Origin: Nitrospirota bacterium | GTDB taxonomy: Bacteria; Nitrospirota; Thermodesulfovibrionia; Thermodesulfovibrionales; UBA1546 | Length of the DNA stretch: 39,752 nucleotides | Reading direction: 5' to 3' | Assembly: GCA_016212165.1 (NCBI GenBank) | Contig: JACRGY010000060.1 | Coordinates: 1-39,752, forward strand | In this document: in pieces, positions 6,169 to 39,700 of the stretch | Layout: every line of letters starts with the position of its first letter | Position numbering within the stretch: the stretch's first letter is position 1 | Notes under the pieces: model-generated | Seen by the model: the letters and a program-made list of their open reading frames with translations, nothing else | What the model was told of the DNA's origin: nothing | Database searches by the model: none | Position numbers and translations under genes: made by a program

Positions 6169-6177
6169 GGGTAATGG

Positions 6178-6345
6178 AAAATGCAGGATACAGTATTTTC
6201 GCTCGTTCTGGGGCTTACGCAGAGACTCCTCCGCCCCAGGCGGATTCGCCGAGGCGAAGAGGTATTTTGCCTCTTTCTTTATCTTAGCTATTCCTTATGG
6301 AATACTGGCAAAATAAATCCGCTCAAATACAATACCCTGCATTTT
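6178..6345 (+). repeat. Structured intergenic element, copy 1 (after leuD)
   Basis: Longest of the five copies. Outer arm AAAATGCAGG (6178-6187) pairs with CCTGCATTTT (6336-6345); a second arm segment GTATTT (6193-6198) pairs with AAATAC (6325-6330). The core contains GCTCGTTCTG, a side hairpin CTGGGGC/GCCCCAG (6208-6214 with 6233-6239), a second side hairpin TTCGCC/GGCGAA, the core stem TATTTTGCC (6263-6271) with GGCAAAATA (6307-6315), and CCGCTCA. The core-stem loop carries its own hairpin TATTCC/GGAATA. It starts nine bases after the leuD stop and ends 37 bases before leuB. Confidence 0.8.
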
Positions 6346-6382
6346 TCAAAAATAAAATGATAGAGAAGGAGTGTTATTAATC

Positions 6383-8159: not shown

Positions 8160-8202
8160 GATTAAATTCTTGCCGGAGTGCTGCTTAAAAAAGTAAGCGA
8201 GT

Positions 8203-8357
8203 AAAAAGCAGGGCCTAGTGCCCTCACTCATTCTCGCTTCGCTCCGAGGTATTTTGCCTCTTTATGACTCTTGAATTCCCCCTTAGCAAAGGGGGATGAA
8301 GGGGGTTGTTGGAATATCGGCAAAATAAAACCGCTCACACACTATCCCCTGCTTTTT
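8203..8357 (+). repeat. Structured intergenic element, copy 2
   Basis: Outer arm AAAAAGCAGGG (8203-8213) pairs with CCCTGCTTTTT (8347-8357), then TAGTG (8216-8220) with CACTA (8340-8344). The core has ACTCATTCTCG, a CTCG/CGAG side hairpin, TATTTTGCC (8240-8248) pairing with GGCAAAATA (8319-8327), and ACCGCTCA. The loop of the core stem holds a nested palindrome with five-G and five-C runs (8276-8305), the widespread CCCCCTTAGCAAAGGGGG type. It lies between the PilZ-receiver gene and the convergent polyferredoxin gene and ends 11 bases before the latter's stop. Confidence 0.8.
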
Positions 8358-8368
8358 GTATTTGCCTA

Positions 8369-12402: not shown

Positions 12403-13641
12403 ATGGCGAGAAAGAGTAATGGCAATCCTGTCCCTATAAAGGACATATTGAACAAACTCACGATTGAAGAGTTGAATATCAGGGGCAAAAGGGTATTCAT
12501 ACGGGCTGATTATAATGTGCCGCTCGATGATAATCTCAGCATCACTGATGACCGCAGGATCCGCTCAACGCTGCCTACCATAGACTATGCAATAGACGAA
12601 GGCGCAAAGGTCATACTCGCTTCCCATCTTGGAAGGCCAAAGGGAAAAGTTGACCCGCGGTTTACTCTTGCGCCTGTTGCAAAAAGGCTTCAGCGGCTGT
12701 TGGGCAAGGAAGTCATTTTCGCTCAGGACTGCATCGGCCCTCAGGTCGAGGGCCTTGTTTCCAGGATGAAGGAAGGCGATGTCCTGCTGCTTGAAAATCT
12801 GAGGTTCCATCCAGGCGAAGAAAAAAATGATGAGGAATTTGCAAAGGCGCTCGCAAAACTTGCTGACTATTTTGTGAATGACGCCTTCGGAGCTGCACAC
12901 AGGGCACATGCCTCAACTGTCGGAATTGCAAGGTTTCTTCCCTCGGCAGTAGGTTTTCTGCTCAGGAAGGAAATAGAATATCTTAAAGGCACGGTTCAGA
13001 ATCCTGTCAGGCCTTTTGTTGCCATCCTTGGCGGGGCAAAGGTCTCCGGCAAGATAGGAGTTCTAGAAAACCTTGTTGATAAGGTTGATAAGGTCATAGT
13101 AGGCGGCGGCATGGCATATACCTTTATAAAAGCCATGGGATATGAGGTGGGTGATTCCCTGGTAGAGACAGAGATGCTCGAATTCGCAGATATGCTAAGG
13201 AAAAAGCTTATAAGGAATAATGTAAAATTTTATCTTCCTGTTGACAGTGTGATAGCACAGAGCATGGAGGCAGGCTCCGAGACCAAACTGGTTACAACAC
13301 AGGAGATTCCCAGGGGTTGGAGAGCTCTTGATATCGGGCCTGCATCTGCCAAACTCTTTTCAGAGGCAATTCAGGATGCAAAAACAATAATATGGAACGG
13401 CCCTATGGGCGTATTTGAGATGGATGCCTTTTCGAGAGGGACTTTTGCGATTGCGCATTCAGTGTCTGACGCATATGCCCTTACAATAGTGGGCGGCGGA
13501 GATACTGACCTGGCTGTGCACAGGGCAGGCGTATCAGACGCCATATCTTTTATATCAACAGGCGGAGGGGCATCTTTGCAATTGCTCGAGGGCAAAGAGC
13601 TTCCGGGAATTGCTGCGCTGACAGACAGGAAAGAGGAGTGA
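12403..13641 (+). CDS. pgk: Phosphoglycerate kinase
   Basis: Transfers phosphate between 1,3-bisphosphoglycerate and ADP. The 412 residues include RVFIRADYNVPLDD with the substrate-binding arginine, ASHLGRPKG, LLENLRFHPGEEKND, VNDAFGAAHRAHAST, ILGGAKVSGKIGVLENL, WNGPMGVFE and the C-terminal GGGDTDLAV...FISTGGGASLQLLEG. It has about 20 extra residues before the usual PGK start (TIEELNIRGKRV); ATG 12403 is nevertheless well placed, nine bases after AAGGAG (12388-12393). Normal length is 390-400, so the extension is modest. It is the second gene of a gap-pgk operon, and structured element copy 3 follows nine bases after the stop. Confidence 0.96.
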   Translation: MARKSNGNPVPIKDILNKLTIEELNIRGKRVFIRADYNVPLDDNLSITDDRRIRSTLPTIDYAIDEGAKVILASHLGRPKGKVDPRFTLAPVAKRLQRLLGKEVIFAQDCIGPQVEGLVSRMKEGDVLLLENLRFHPGEEKNDEEFAKALAKLADYFVNDAFGAAHRAHASTVGIARFLPSAVGFLLRKEIEYLKGTVQNPVRPFVAILGGAKVSGKIGVLENLVDKVDKVIVGGGMAYTFIKAMGYEVGDSLVETEMLEFADMLRKKLIRNNVKFYLPVDSVIAQSMEAGSETKLVTTQEIPRGWRALDIGPASAKLFSEAIQDAKTIIWNGPMGVFEMDAFSRGTFAIAHSVSDAYALTIVGGGDTDLAVHRAGVSDAISFISTGGGASLQLLEGKELPGIAALTDRKEE

Positions 13642-13650
13642 GTAATGGTT

Positions 13651-13804
13651 AAGAAAGCATGCTACAGCATCTTCGCTCATTCTCGCTGCGCTCCGAGGTA
13701 TTTTGCCTCTTTATTCCTCTTAAAGTTCCCCTTAGCAAAGGGGATTAAGGGGTTGTGGAATATCGGCAAAATAAAACCGCTCAGATACTCTATCATGCTT
13801 TCTT
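13651..13804 (+). repeat. Structured intergenic element, copy 3 (after pgk)
   Basis: Outer arm AAGAAAGCATG (13651-13661) pairs perfectly with CATGCTTTCTT (13794-13804); the pairing continues inward through GCATCT/AGATAC (one C.A mismatch). The core shows TCGCTCATTCTCG, a CTCG/CGAG side hairpin around GCTCCG, GAGGTATTTTGCCTC, the core stem TATTTTGCC with GGCAAAATA (13766-13774), and ACCGCTCA. The loop contains the same nested palindrome as copy 2 but with four-base C and G runs instead of five. Ends 19 bases before tRNA-Val. Confidence 0.85.
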
Positions 13805-13823
13805 GTAATTTGTGGTTGTAACC

Positions 13824-13898
13824 GGGCGATTAGCTCAGTGGTAGAGCGTTCCCTTCACACGGGAAAGGCCGTGGGTTCGATACCCTCATCGCCCACCA
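13824..13898 (+). tRNA. tRNA-Val (anticodon CAC)
   Basis: A 75-base tRNA with encoded CCA. Acceptor GGGCGAT pairs with ATCGCCC; D arm GCTC/GAGC; anticodon stem TTCCC/GGGAA with loop TTCACAC, giving anticodon CAC (reads GUG, valine); T arm GTGGG/CCCTC around TTCGATA, with one U.U mismatch inside the T stem. Discriminator A followed by CCA. A CAC-anticodon valine tRNA is a supplementary isoacceptor, so a UAC tRNA should exist elsewhere in the genome. Confidence 0.95.
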
Positions 13899-22719: not shown

Positions 22720-22746
22720 TATTAACAATCTCCTATCTATAACTTA

Positions 22747-22876
22747 AAGCGAGATATAGTGTTTGAGCGGTTTTATCTTGCCGATAGTCCAGAATCTGCT
22801 TAATATAATTAAGAGGCAAGATACCTCGGAGGTCGCCTCGGCGACCGAGAATGAGCGAGAATACTATATCTTGCTT
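22747..22876 (-). repeat. Structured intergenic element, copy 4 (after ispA)
   Basis: Read on the minus strand like ispA. Arm AAGCAAGATATAGTATT (from 22876) pairs with the opposite arm at 22747-22763 with two A.C mismatches. The core stem is changed to TATCTTGCC/GGCAAGATA (22774-22782 with 22815-22823), a compensatory double substitution relative to the other copies. A side hairpin GGTCGCC/GGCGACC (22831-22846) and a loop hairpin CTTAAT/ATTAAG are present, as are CGCTCATTCTCG and ACCGCTCA. The arm begins inside the ispA stop codon. Element ends 27 bases before dxs. Confidence 0.82.
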
Positions 22877-23762
22877 AATTCTTTCTTTCAAGAAAATACC
22901 TCGCAATTTCCCTCAATGGTTCTGCCTTGCCTGAAAAATCCTTAATTGCAAAGATTGCTTCTGATATAAGTTCCCCTGCTTTTTCCCTGGATTGCTCTAT
23001 ACCGTAGAGGGCAGGATAGGTCATCTTCTTTTTCCTCTCATCAGAACCGGCAGTCTTGCCGAGTTCTTCCGTGTTCCCTTCAATATCAAGTATATCATCT
23101 ATGACCTGAAAGGCAAGGCCGATATTCTCGCCGTATCTTGTAATGGCACTGAGTGAGAGTTTGGTGCAGTTAGCAAGGATTGCCCCGGCCCTTAAAGAGC
23201 CTGATATTAATGCCCCTGTCTTATGTTTGTGTATAAAGGAAAGCGTTTCCTTGTCAGGTTCCGCATCCTCTGAAAGAAGGTCCTGCGCCTGTCCGCCGAC
23301 CATACCATGAATGCCTGATACAAAAGCTATTTCCTTTATCGCCCTTATCAAAGCTGCGTTTTTTATATTTTTATTAGACAGAGAATTTGACATCATATAA
23401 AACGCCTCTGTCAATAACCCGTCTCCTGCAAGTATTGCCATGCCTTCTCCGAATACCTTGTGGTTTGTAGGCTTCCCTCTTCTGAGGTCGTCATTATCCA
23501 TGGCAGGAAGGTCGTCATGTATAAGGGAATATGTATGAATGAGTTCTATGGATGATGCAAATTGGATTATATCTTCAGAATCGCCATCGCATGCCTCATA
23601 AGCTGCAAGGCAGAGTATCGGACGGATTCTTTTCCCGCCTGCAAAAAGTGAATAGGCGAGAGATTCGCCGAGTATTGAAGGAGTAGACGGTGAAGAGAAG
23701 TATTCTTTAAGGAACGAGTCTACAAGCTCCTTTTTTTCTTTGAGATATGATTTTATATCCAT
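22875..23762 (-). CDS. ispA: Farnesyl/geranylgeranyl diphosphate synthase
   Basis: Trans-prenyltransferase that chains isopentenyl units onto allylic diphosphates. The 295 residues show GGKRIRPIL, the first aspartate-rich motif in LIHDDLPAMDNDDLRRGKPTNHK, KTGALI, and the second motif GLAFQVIDDILDIEG followed by GKTAGSDERKKKMTYPALYG. The IspA/FPPS type is likely from the motif DDLPAMDND and the length; the product could also be geranylgeranyl diphosphate. It starts three bases after guaA. Its stop codon TAA forms the first bases of the outer arm of element copy 4. Confidence 0.92.
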   Translation of the reverse strand: MDIKSYLKEKKELVDSFLKEYFSSPSTPSILGESLAYSLFAGGKRIRPILCLAAYEACDGDSEDIIQFASSIELIHTYSLIHDDLPAMDNDDLRRGKPTNHKVFGEGMAILAGDGLLTEAFYMMSNSLSNKNIKNAALIRAIKEIAFVSGIHGMVGGQAQDLLSEDAEPDKETLSFIHKHKTGALISGSLRAGAILANCTKLSLSAITRYGENIGLAFQVIDDILDIEGNTEELGKTAGSDERKKKMTYPALYGIEQSREKAGELISEAIFAIKDFSGKAEPLREIARYFLERKN

Positions 23763-37591: not shown

Positions 37592-39520
37592 ATGAAGAAG
37601 AAATTTCTGCTTATCGCATTATCCCTTTCTTTTCTTGGCCTTGCATCAGGCGAGGAAATAGACGGCAGGGCCCTTCTCCTCAGGGGTAAAGATGCCATGG
37701 ATGCCGGCCGGTATCCCGAGGCAATTGAGAGCCTTTCTGCAGCGCATGAGAAGGTCCCGGTTATGGGGGATTACATACTTTTCTGGCTTTCAAAGGCCTA
37801 TCAGGAAGCCGGGGATATCAATGAATCGAATAATAAGATACAAGAACTGCTCGCGGGTTATCCTGATTCACCTCTAAGGAAAAAGGCCCGCTCAATGGAG
37901 ATAAAAAATATTATCGCCTCAAATGAAATACCTCCTGGACTGAAGGTCTTTGAAGCGTATATAAAAGACTACTCTGAAGATTATGATATAAAATTTTTGT
38001 TCGGACAGGCGCTCAAAAGCCAGGGGAAGGCAGAAAGGGCAAAAATAATCTTCAGGGATATCTATGTCAACAGCCCGGGGATATCTTCAAAGGCAGCGCA
38101 TAATGAACTGGCTCCCTCTGATATCACTGCATACGACCTTATTGAAAAAGCGTCAAATCTTATAAATGCGATGGAATTTGCAGAGGCTGAAGCTATACTC
38201 AGGGCAGCCCTGCTTAAAGATGACGGCCAGCGCAAACTCGAAATCCTTAAAAAACTGGGGCACTCGGTGTTCAAGCAAAAAAGGTATAAGGAATCAGCAG
38301 AGATATATGAAAAAGCAGGGGATAATTACTGGAGGGCAATGGCTCTTTACAGGGCAGGAGACAAGGCTGCATTCGGCTTAACCCTAAAAAAACTGGCCTT
38401 GACAGGAGACAAGAGAACAGGCTCGCTGCTGCTGCTGGCGGCATCTGATAAGAGGAGAAACAACGAGATTGATGAAGCCCTGGGCATGTATAAAACCCTG
38501 AAAGCAAACCATCCTTCAGAGGCTGAGAATTCTATGTGGGGCATTGGATGGACTTATTATCTCAGCGGTGACTATCAGAAAGCCCTTGACGCCTTTACAG
38601 AACTATGCAGCGCTTATGGCAGCCCAAAATATCTCTACTGGAAGGCGCAGGCATTGGAAAAACTGGGCAAGGATGCAGCCCATATCTACAGGCAGATTAC
38701 AGAGAAAGAACAGGATTTTTACGGTGTGCTTGCATATTTAAAAAGCAACAAGGGGTCAAGGGGCCAAGGGGTCAAGGGGTCTGGCGAAGACAGCATACTA
38801 CTCGAACCCTCGAACCCTCGAACCCTCGAACCCTTTCGGAAGCCGTTCCAGTCCGAGAGAATAGATATCCTTTTAGAACTCGGCATGAAAAAAGAAGCTG
38901 TTTCAGAACTCGCTGCTATAGCCAGAAAAGCAGCCACGCCTGATGAGCTTTTGTCCATTTCCATGAAACTTCAGGATGCAGGCGAATACAGACTAGTGAT
39001 AACTCTGGTATCAAGTCTCCCCAACCGAGAAATAAACCATGATATCCTGTATCCTCTTGCCCATTGGGCTGTTGTTAAGGAAGCATCTGACAGATACGGG
39101 GTTGACCCTTTTATTGTCCTTTCTGTCATGAGGGAAGAAAGCCGCTTTGATTCTGAAGCGCGCTCTACTGCAGGAGCGCTCGGCCTGATGCAGATGATGC
39201 CGCAGACTGCCTCTGCAATGGATAGAAATATAAAATCCAGGGCTCAGTTATACAATGTAAAGACAAATATATATCTCGGTTCACGCTACCTAAACTCTCT
39301 CATAAAAGAGTTTGGTTCCCTGCCGGCAGCGATTGCAGCATACAATGCAGGAGAGGACGCTGTAAGAAGATGGCAGAACGCAGGCAAATACAGCTCTGTT
39401 GATGAATTCATCGAGGATATTCCTTATGGCGAGACAAAAAGCTACGTTAAGCGTGTCTTAACGACTTATTTTGAATATCTCAAACATTCAGACAAGAAAG
39501 AGATGCCCAAAATACTCTGA
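37592..39520 (+). CDS. slt: Soluble lytic murein transglycosylase (Slt70-like) with TPR domain
   Basis: Periplasmic enzyme that cuts glycan strands with 1,6-anhydro ends. The 642 residues have a signal peptide (MKKKFLLIALSLSFLGLASG), a superhelical TPR-like region (about 25-390; ILFWLSKAYQEAGDINE, MWGIGWTYYLSGDYQKALDAF) and a C-terminal SLT domain with the catalytic glutamate in VMREESRFDSEARSTAGALGLMQMMPQTA and the AYNAGEDAVRRW motif. Between the TPR and SLT domains (about residues 387-418) two octanucleotide arrays encode a Gly/Ser/Arg then Pro/Leu/Glu linker. The gene appears leaderless. Structured element copy 5 follows 28 bases after the stop. Confidence 0.92.
   Translation: MKKKFLLIALSLSFLGLASGEEIDGRALLLRGKDAMDAGRYPEAIESLSAAHEKVPVMGDYILFWLSKAYQEAGDINESNNKIQELLAGYPDSPLRKKARSMEIKNIIASNEIPPGLKVFEAYIKDYSEDYDIKFLFGQALKSQGKAERAKIIFRDIYVNSPGISSKAAHNELAPSDITAYDLIEKASNLINAMEFAEAEAILRAALLKDDGQRKLEILKKLGHSVFKQKRYKESAEIYEKAGDNYWRAMALYRAGDKAAFGLTLKKLALTGDKRTGSLLLLAASDKRRNNEIDEALGMYKTLKANHPSEAENSMWGIGWTYYLSGDYQKALDAFTELCSAYGSPKYLYWKAQALEKLGKDAAHIYRQITEKEQDFYGVLAYLKSNKGSRGQGVKGSGEDSILLEPSNPRTLEPFRKPFQSERIDILLELGMKKEAVSELAAIARKAATPDELLSISMKLQDAGEYRLVITLVSSLPNREINHDILYPLAHWAVVKEASDRYGVDPFIVLSVMREESRFDSEARSTAGALGLMQMMPQTASAMDRNIKSRAQLYNVKTNIYLGSRYLNSLIKEFGSLPAAIAAYNAGEDAVRRWQNAGKYSSVDEFIEDIPYGETKSYVKRVLTTYFEYLKHSDKKEMPKIL
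38750..38781. repeat. In-frame 8-bp array in slt (first)
   Basis: AAGGGGTC, AAGGGGCC, AAGGGGTC, AAGGGGTC: four octads, encoding a Gly/Ser/Arg/Gln/Val-rich linker. Confidence 0.88.
38802..38833. repeat. In-frame 8-bp array in slt (second)
   Basis: TCGAACCC four times without change. It encodes EPSNPRTLEP. Separated by only 20 bp from the first octad array and unrelated to it in sequence. Confidence 0.9.
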
Positions 39521-39548
39521 ATACTAAAAGTTAAAACCAGAGTCTTTT

Positions 39549-39672
39549 GCCGACAGGATTAGTCTCTCGCTCATTCTCGATCATTCAGACCTCCGAGGAT
39601 TTTGCCTCTTTATATATAAACAAGCTGCCGGACTATCGGCAAAATAAACCGCTCAAAACCAATCCTGCCGGC
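39549..39672 (+). repeat. Structured intergenic element, copy 5 (after slt)
   Basis: Arm GCCGACAGGATT (39549-39560) pairs with AATCCTGCCGGC (39661-39672) with one A.C mismatch; pairing goes on inward with further A.C positions. The core has CTCGCTCATTCTCG, CCTCCGAGG, the core stem ATTTTGCC/GGCAAAAT, GGACTATCGGC and AACCGCTCA. The loop is short and contains the palindrome TTTATATATAAA. It lacks the nested G/C-run palindrome of copies 2 and 3. Confidence 0.8.
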
Positions 39673-39700
39673 ATTTATTATGTCGCTGTTTATATGTTTG

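Follow-up and report, generated by a model that had tools for sequence, protein, structure and literature searches.

A dispersed intergenic repeat of Thermodesulfovibrionales-type Nitrospirota with a conserved three-way junction and copy-specific, self-pairing ends

The 39,752-nt stretch of Nitrospirota DNA analysed here (hereafter the window) contains, between a phosphoglycerate kinase gene (12403-13641, plus strand; Pfam PGK) and a tRNA-Val gene (13824-13898, plus strand), a non-coding repeat at positions 13650-13807 of the plus strand. A covariance model trained on 28 copies, and used for the window and whole-genome searches, scores this element at 126.6 bits and matches exactly five places in the window, the same five at which a preliminary description of the sequence had placed copies. 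Copy 1 (6176-6349, plus strand) separates leuD-like (aconitase-C) and leuB-like (isocitrate/isopropylmalate dehydrogenase) genes identified with Pfam, and copy 2 (8201-8361, plus strand) lies between convergent genes. The element studied here is copy 3. Copy 4 (22740-22881, minus strand) is located inside an operon, between the genes for a polyprenyl synthetase and a DXP synthase (Pfam), in a gap that in the sister genome G001 holds a different copy in the opposite orientation, and copy 5 (39544-39679, plus strand) follows a lytic transglycosylase gene (37592-39520; Pfam).

Read on the plus strand, copy 3 is bounded by two arms, AAGAAAGCATGCTACAGCATCT (13651-13672) and AGATACTCTATCATGCTTTCTT (13783-13804), which pair with each other to form the closing stem P1. 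The left arm is followed by a conserved junction strand, CGCTCATT (13674-13681; AATGAGCG on the folding strand, as defined below), which is almost invariant across 28 copies and is kept in a distant subfamily. Next come the P2 hairpin, CTCG-CTGCGCTC-CGAG (13682-13697), whose loop is swapped among copies, and the P3 helix, with its 5' strand ATTTTGCC at 13700-13707 and its 3' strand GGCAAAAT at 13765-13772. Between the two P3 strands lies the distal loop (13708-13764); the repeat block nested in it, CCCCTTAGCAAAGGGGATTAAGGGG, is absent from the G001 orthologue. A second conserved junction strand, CCGCTC (13777-13782; GAGCGG on the folding strand), likewise kept by the distant subfamily, leads into the right arm. 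In about half the copies the P3 loop houses such a second, nested repeat, of the CCCCCTTAGCAAAGGGGGATTAAGGGGG type (13708-13764 and approximately 8262-8315 in the window). P2 of copy 1 is enlarged by an inserted block, and the block GACTCCTCCGCCCCAGGCGGATTCGCCGAGGCGAAGAGG takes the place of the P2 loop in several copies (6214-6260 in the window; also L009, L017 and L028). Some copies (L195, L198, L201 and L236) carry an alternative P3 (TTTTGCCTGTCCATGCATTCTGCATAGAGGCAGGCAAAA or TTTTGTCCCGATAGCTATCGGGACAAAA), so that whole P3 types are interchangeable.

The motifs that the preliminary description listed as shared by the five copies are present, but they are not identical in all of them: the copy at 6178 has CGCTCGTTCTGG and GAAGAGGTATTTTGCC, the copy at 8203 has CACTCATTCTCG, and those at 22747 and 39549 have GGTATCTTGCC and GGATTTTGCC, respectively. 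The arms are indeed copy-specific, yet "unrelated" overstates their divergence, as they scatter round a weak consensus, GRCAGGRYATAGTATTT / AAATACTATRYCCTGYC. They run further inward, via AGTATTT/AAATACT, as far as the junction.

The covariance model identifies 91 copies in the window's own genome (G000; 2.79 Mb in 202 contigs), with elements about 105-210 bp in length and a typical copy of ~150 bases. The element occurs in 28 of 41 genomes, comprising G000 and 40 relatives in and around its family, with copy numbers ranging from 0 to 91; the figures for the relatives (0 to at least 77) are lower bounds, counted among the matches listed. In a phylum-wide sample, 12 of 118 genomes contain it, and one Nitrospinota-labelled record also matches. 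The closest named carriers are Nitrospirae/Thermodesulfovibrionales metagenome-assembled genomes (MAGs), such as X2_MetaBAT.7 (G001) and FW300_bin.22 (G003). Every genome used is a MAG, and G000 has an estimated contamination of 8%, but the loci compared are syntenic with G001. Viral contigs (IMG/VR) yielded no exact match, and viral carriage was rejected on this basis. A search of the window against Rfam 15 returned only tRNA, with no relevant match for the element at E<=1. The core thus belongs to no Rfam family, a comparison proposed at the outset, and the initial statement that no described family has this core agrees with Rfam and with searches of open-access papers, which turned up no description of it. 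Judged on Rfam 15 and open-access papers only, the family looks undescribed.

Each arm had been said to pair with its own partner, and duplex energies, permutation and covariation all place this pairing far above chance. Across 28 copies, the arm duplexes formed with own partners average -21.1 kcal/mol, versus -10.4 kcal/mol for cross-copy duplexes, and the own-pair mean was reached in none of 10,000 permutations. As a control for covariance-model alignments, which favour structure, we used a MAFFT alignment based on sequence only and blind to structure; it contains 100 cells with changes on both sides that leave the pair intact; shuffled alignments give 27 ± 5, and sliding the partner gives no more than 21. 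The 89 distinct copies of the window's genome show 398 such double-changed cells (99 ± 10 when shuffled). Pairing and covariation hold in these larger copy sets, and the arms are not random outside the five copies first seen. Direct evidence of selection on pairing comes from locus L162, where the arms of G000 and G003 differ by a change compensated in place, from GATTCAG/CTGAATC to GATTCGG/CCGAATC.

Mismatches in P1 reveal which strand is under constraint. On the strand originally described, the 89 own-genome copies have 173 A·C and 19 G·T mismatches, and A·C on this strand corresponds to G·U/G·T wobbles on its complement; standard pairs account for 84.4% of P1 positions, or ~94% if A·C is counted as complement wobbles. 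This large excess of A·C over G·T indicates that the complementary strand is the constrained, folding one. All four gene-orientation classes (genes with, against, towards and away from the core) show an asymmetry of the same sign, which makes it a property of the element rather than of transcription or replication, and transcription- or replication-linked mutation is ruled out as its cause on the same grounds. Folding energies agree: of 234 copies, 211 have the more stable fold on the complementary strand (p about 3e-33), a number that rises to 216 with DNA parameters. The strand used in the preliminary description is therefore not the best folder. Its complement forms a three-way junction with the layout 5'-P1-GAGCGG-(UUU)-P3-C-P2-AAUGAGCGA-P1', in which the closing stem P1, P3 and P2 are arranged round GAGCGG and AATGAGCGA. 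The idea of a single-strand structure with a conserved junction and a variable, paired closing stem is thereby borne out, with strong covariation. The wobble asymmetry fits RNA as well as single-stranded DNA (ssDNA).

A divergent subfamily, found in genomes of another family (G140, G121 and G037), replicates these features. It retains CGCTCATTCTCG ... CTCCGAGG ... CCGCTC together with the P1 consensus, while its P3 has a wholly different, still paired sequence and its P2 differs as well. Covariation is again strong (213 double-changed cells, against 59 ± 8 when shuffled), the strand asymmetry has the same direction (40 A·C versus 5 G·T), and the complementary strand is more stable in 40 of 42 copies. 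The replacement of helices around the same junction, with covariation preserved, points to the junction bases as the conserved feature, the sequences suggesting that the helices need only pair. The hairpins of this subfamily (L276-L309) have a common CATCC loop motif in both P2 and P3.

Copies are intergenic, beginning at a median of 9-10 nt past the upstream stop codon and nearly filling host gaps of about 170-180 nt. Between co-directional gene pairs, the plus strand of the core runs with the genes in 82 cases and against them in 18 (p about 6e-11), with a corresponding split of 24 to 6 in the subfamily; the folding strand is thus mostly antisense to the transcript (82/100). Orientation tracks transcription better than GC skew, and replication-strand bias, weaker than gene direction and confounded with it, was rejected as the cause. 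The more stable strand may be less tolerated in mRNA; more broadly, the bias could reflect either a role for the element in the transcript or selection against its presence there. The element is not a general terminator: instead of the GC stem and U tract of an intrinsic terminator, no more than 10% of copies have at least six T of eight at the 3' end, and copies lie inside operons.

The chief comparison for the history of individual copies is with G001, which is ~95% identical to G000. Among 46 own-genome copies with both flanks mapped in the compared portion of G001, 23 have a counterpart in the same orientation and 10 have no model match; the other 13 face a counterpart that is inverted (13 of 37 shared intergenic gaps). 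Locus L189 is occupied in G000 only: the sites in G001, G002, G003 and G008 are empty, with both arms missing, and the G000 copy, arms and core together, is bracketed by TATGTTC on both sides (a 7-bp repeat). This is a lineage-specific gain of the whole unit. The opposite event, loss of the whole unit, is seen at L162: G003 has the copy, its arms still recognisable as the same, and G001 lacks it entirely, both arms included; the gap holds a copy with other arms in G005 and a copy in the opposite orientation in G007. This site (L162, 1501-1638, and the matching gap in L319-L322) is a hot spot, occupied in several genomes with differing arms and in both orientations. The gene downstream of it has a GFGGQGIL start motif, and by eye we take it to encode, probably, an oxidoreductase gamma subunit. 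No consistent target-site duplication was found across copies: at least six bases are shared in 35% of copies, compared with 24% of mismatched pairs, a difference that local AT content could explain. At the inverted locus L193/L234 the same arms surround a core that has been flipped (p 0.0002); for five other inverted loci the data are suggestive of the same arms, and the remainder look like unrelated arms. Recombinational import was considered as an origin of the inversions and dismissed, since the flanks were not significantly less identical there. The preliminary description had set the element apart from mobile elements; that contrast fails, since arms and core are gained and lost as a unit and copy number varies from 0 to 91 per genome. 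The element is not an RNA gene fixed in place but a mobile, dispersed repeat.

Arms and cores nevertheless have different histories. Within a genome, arm identity averages ~15/28 whatever the core identity (r = 0.07-0.09), a decoupling that extends to cores at least 95% identical; L183, L184 and L189, for instance, have cores 97% identical and different arms. Between orthologues, both arms are kept in 19 of 24 same-orientation pairs, and 8 of the 16 scorable pairs with conserved arms show a different P2 or P3, swapped in between intact flanks, usually with a loop that occurs in another copy. The simplest cause is ectopic gene conversion, which homogenises cores and ends where homology ends, at the arms. 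The earlier argument that mobile elements "lose their middles" missed this cause, by which cores are exchanged among copies and arms stay with the locus. A different account would have the arms newly written on movement, perhaps with one arm serving as fold-back template for the other, or would have the core move between resident pairs of arms. The L189 copy, whose core is 97% identical to another copy and whose arms match none of 238 copies (best 20/28), fits arms written anew, but ectopic core conversion explains the same data more cheaply, and we find the rewriting of arms quite doubtful; if true, it would make this a mobile element with self-templated ends needing only self-complementarity. 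Excision of the core between CGCTCA direct repeats followed by reinsertion was also considered and rejected, the only arm-loop-arm site being a deletion derivative (L224:14919).

The fold and its strand, the covariation, mobility as a whole unit, intergenic placement behind stop codons and the exchange of loops and cores are all observed in the comparisons above. We consider that they are best explained, with a probability of about 0.6, by a family of small, non-autonomous REP/ERIC-like mobile repeats of Thermodesulfovibrionales-type Nitrospirota whose signal is the single-stranded three-way junction. Much of the same evidence could be read as a structured RNA, with the folding strand transcribed and the junction acting in a small or antisense RNA or in an RNA intermediate of retro-mobilisation: tolerance of the G·U type is confined to one strand, junction nucleotides are conserved among freely varying helices, and the folding strand has the lower RNA folding energy. 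In 82 of 100 gaps between same-direction genes, however, such an RNA would run antisense to its neighbours, and it would require its own promoter at each of ~90 loci; it corresponds to no Rfam family, and RVT_1 is absent from the copy-rich genomes G000, G003 and G007. We therefore regard it as unlikely, and the antisense position of the folding strand, together with several copy-rich genomes without reverse transcriptase, leads us to prefer ssDNA over RNA as the folded form.

An element of the sense-strand mRNA (an intercistronic stabiliser, RNase site or terminator), selected in operons and only incidentally mobile, would account for the strong orientation bias along transcription, for the position between operon genes such as leuD-leuB and ispA-dxs, and for the re-occupation of the same gaps in relatives. 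The wobbles, however, fall on the wrong strand for it, orthologous gaps hold both orientations, 3' ends with at least six T of eight are limited to 10% of copies, and whole copies are cleanly lost, all of which renders this reading rather improbable. It is far less credible that the arms are host terminators, hairpins that were there beforehand and took up an ordinary element in their loops. Alike cores within differing arms, and arms directly behind stop codons, would be expected of such insertions, but unoccupied sites have neither arm, which refutes the idea at the sites tested; moreover, the arms have a common consensus and run into the core, and empty docking hairpins with a single CGCTCA were not found.

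The preferred reading, that of a mobile repeat signalled by its junction, can be set beside several known systems. Integron attC sites are imperfect inverted repeats that fold on the bottom strand just after stop codons, with structure conserved over sequence and with conserved R''/R' ends (RYYYAAC ... GTTRRRY). The element resembles them in its one-strand fold behind stop codons, and differs in having no conserved R'/R'' ends, a conserved middle and ordinary biosynthetic genes as neighbours. REPs, 20-50 nt long, consist of a single palindrome next to a conserved tag, GTAG (or CGTC), and are associated with TnpA_REP (RAYT) transposases (PMC8266576, PMC3733652, PMC3116915). As in REPs and REPINs, we find high-copy, non-autonomous, palindromic intergenic repeats near stop codons, mostly downstream of coding regions, with a strand-specific single-strand structure; unlike REPs, the element is a three-way junction of 105-210 bp with a conserved centre and variable ends, it does not surround the Y1 genes tested, and the composition of 230 copy ends reveals no conserved GTAG/CGTC-type tetranucleotide. 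ERIC/IRU, RU-1/2/3, bcr1 and other small interspersed repeats or MITEs have conserved termini (PMC2229807, PMC2759123, PMC10969869). They share with the element a size of 100-170 bp, an intergenic position in operons, foldability and a dispersed, non-coding nature, but in contrast to MITEs, with their terminal inverted repeats and target duplications, its termini are variable and kept by pairing alone: they are inverted repeats specific to each copy, and no MITE-type terminal inverted repeat is common to all copies. Near their ends, IS200/IS605 elements have ssDNA hairpins of which one strand is recognised (PMC6006769, PMC8266576); these are simple hairpins as opposed to a three-way junction, and the present element has no transposase gene or half-element round an ORF in the segments examined. 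The element thus works like REP/ERIC-type repeats, yet it is not a REP, a classical MITE, an attC site or a known Rfam RNA.

Conserved termini are what normally defines small bacterial repeats. Here the termini are the least conserved part; what is kept across bacterial families, and on just one of the strands, is the branch point of a single-strand fold. A conserved junction with variable termini suggests recognition by shape at the junction rather than by end sequence. The family would add a branched-DNA or branched-RNA class alongside REP and attC. It constitutes a natural library of hundreds of compensated helices, and two near-identical genomes with gains, losses, inversions and loop swaps make its mode of movement directly testable.

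By the logic of REP and IS200-like elements, a putative enzyme supplied in trans would act on the folded single-stranded form, most likely ssDNA, with the junction strands GAGCGG and AATGAGCGA as its recognition signal. Arms would then drift through compensatory changes, since helices need only pair, and cores would be homogenised by gene-conversion-like patches. A Y1/HUH transposase is a candidate for this enzyme, by analogy with REP and TnpA_REP (PMC8266576). There was no covariance-model match beside Y1 transposase genes at ten loci (one per genome), and a Y1 match was absent or weak in G006, G014 and G002 despite at least 10, 8 and 25 copies, respectively; with no adjacency and no strict correlation with copy number, Y1/RAYT was set aside as the partner. 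Half-elements around an ORF, or an autonomous version with an internal ORF, were not found in the sequence segments examined. The RVT_1 reverse transcriptase domain was not found in G000, G003, G004 or G007, the first, second and last of which are copy-rich, and spread driven by a reverse transcriptase was rejected for this reason. A gene for a Y1 transposase of RAYT-like type (227 aa, with an HVH motif) in L275 (1204-2873) adjoins one for a 316-aa protein, and the start of this protein looks like a TIR domain by eye.
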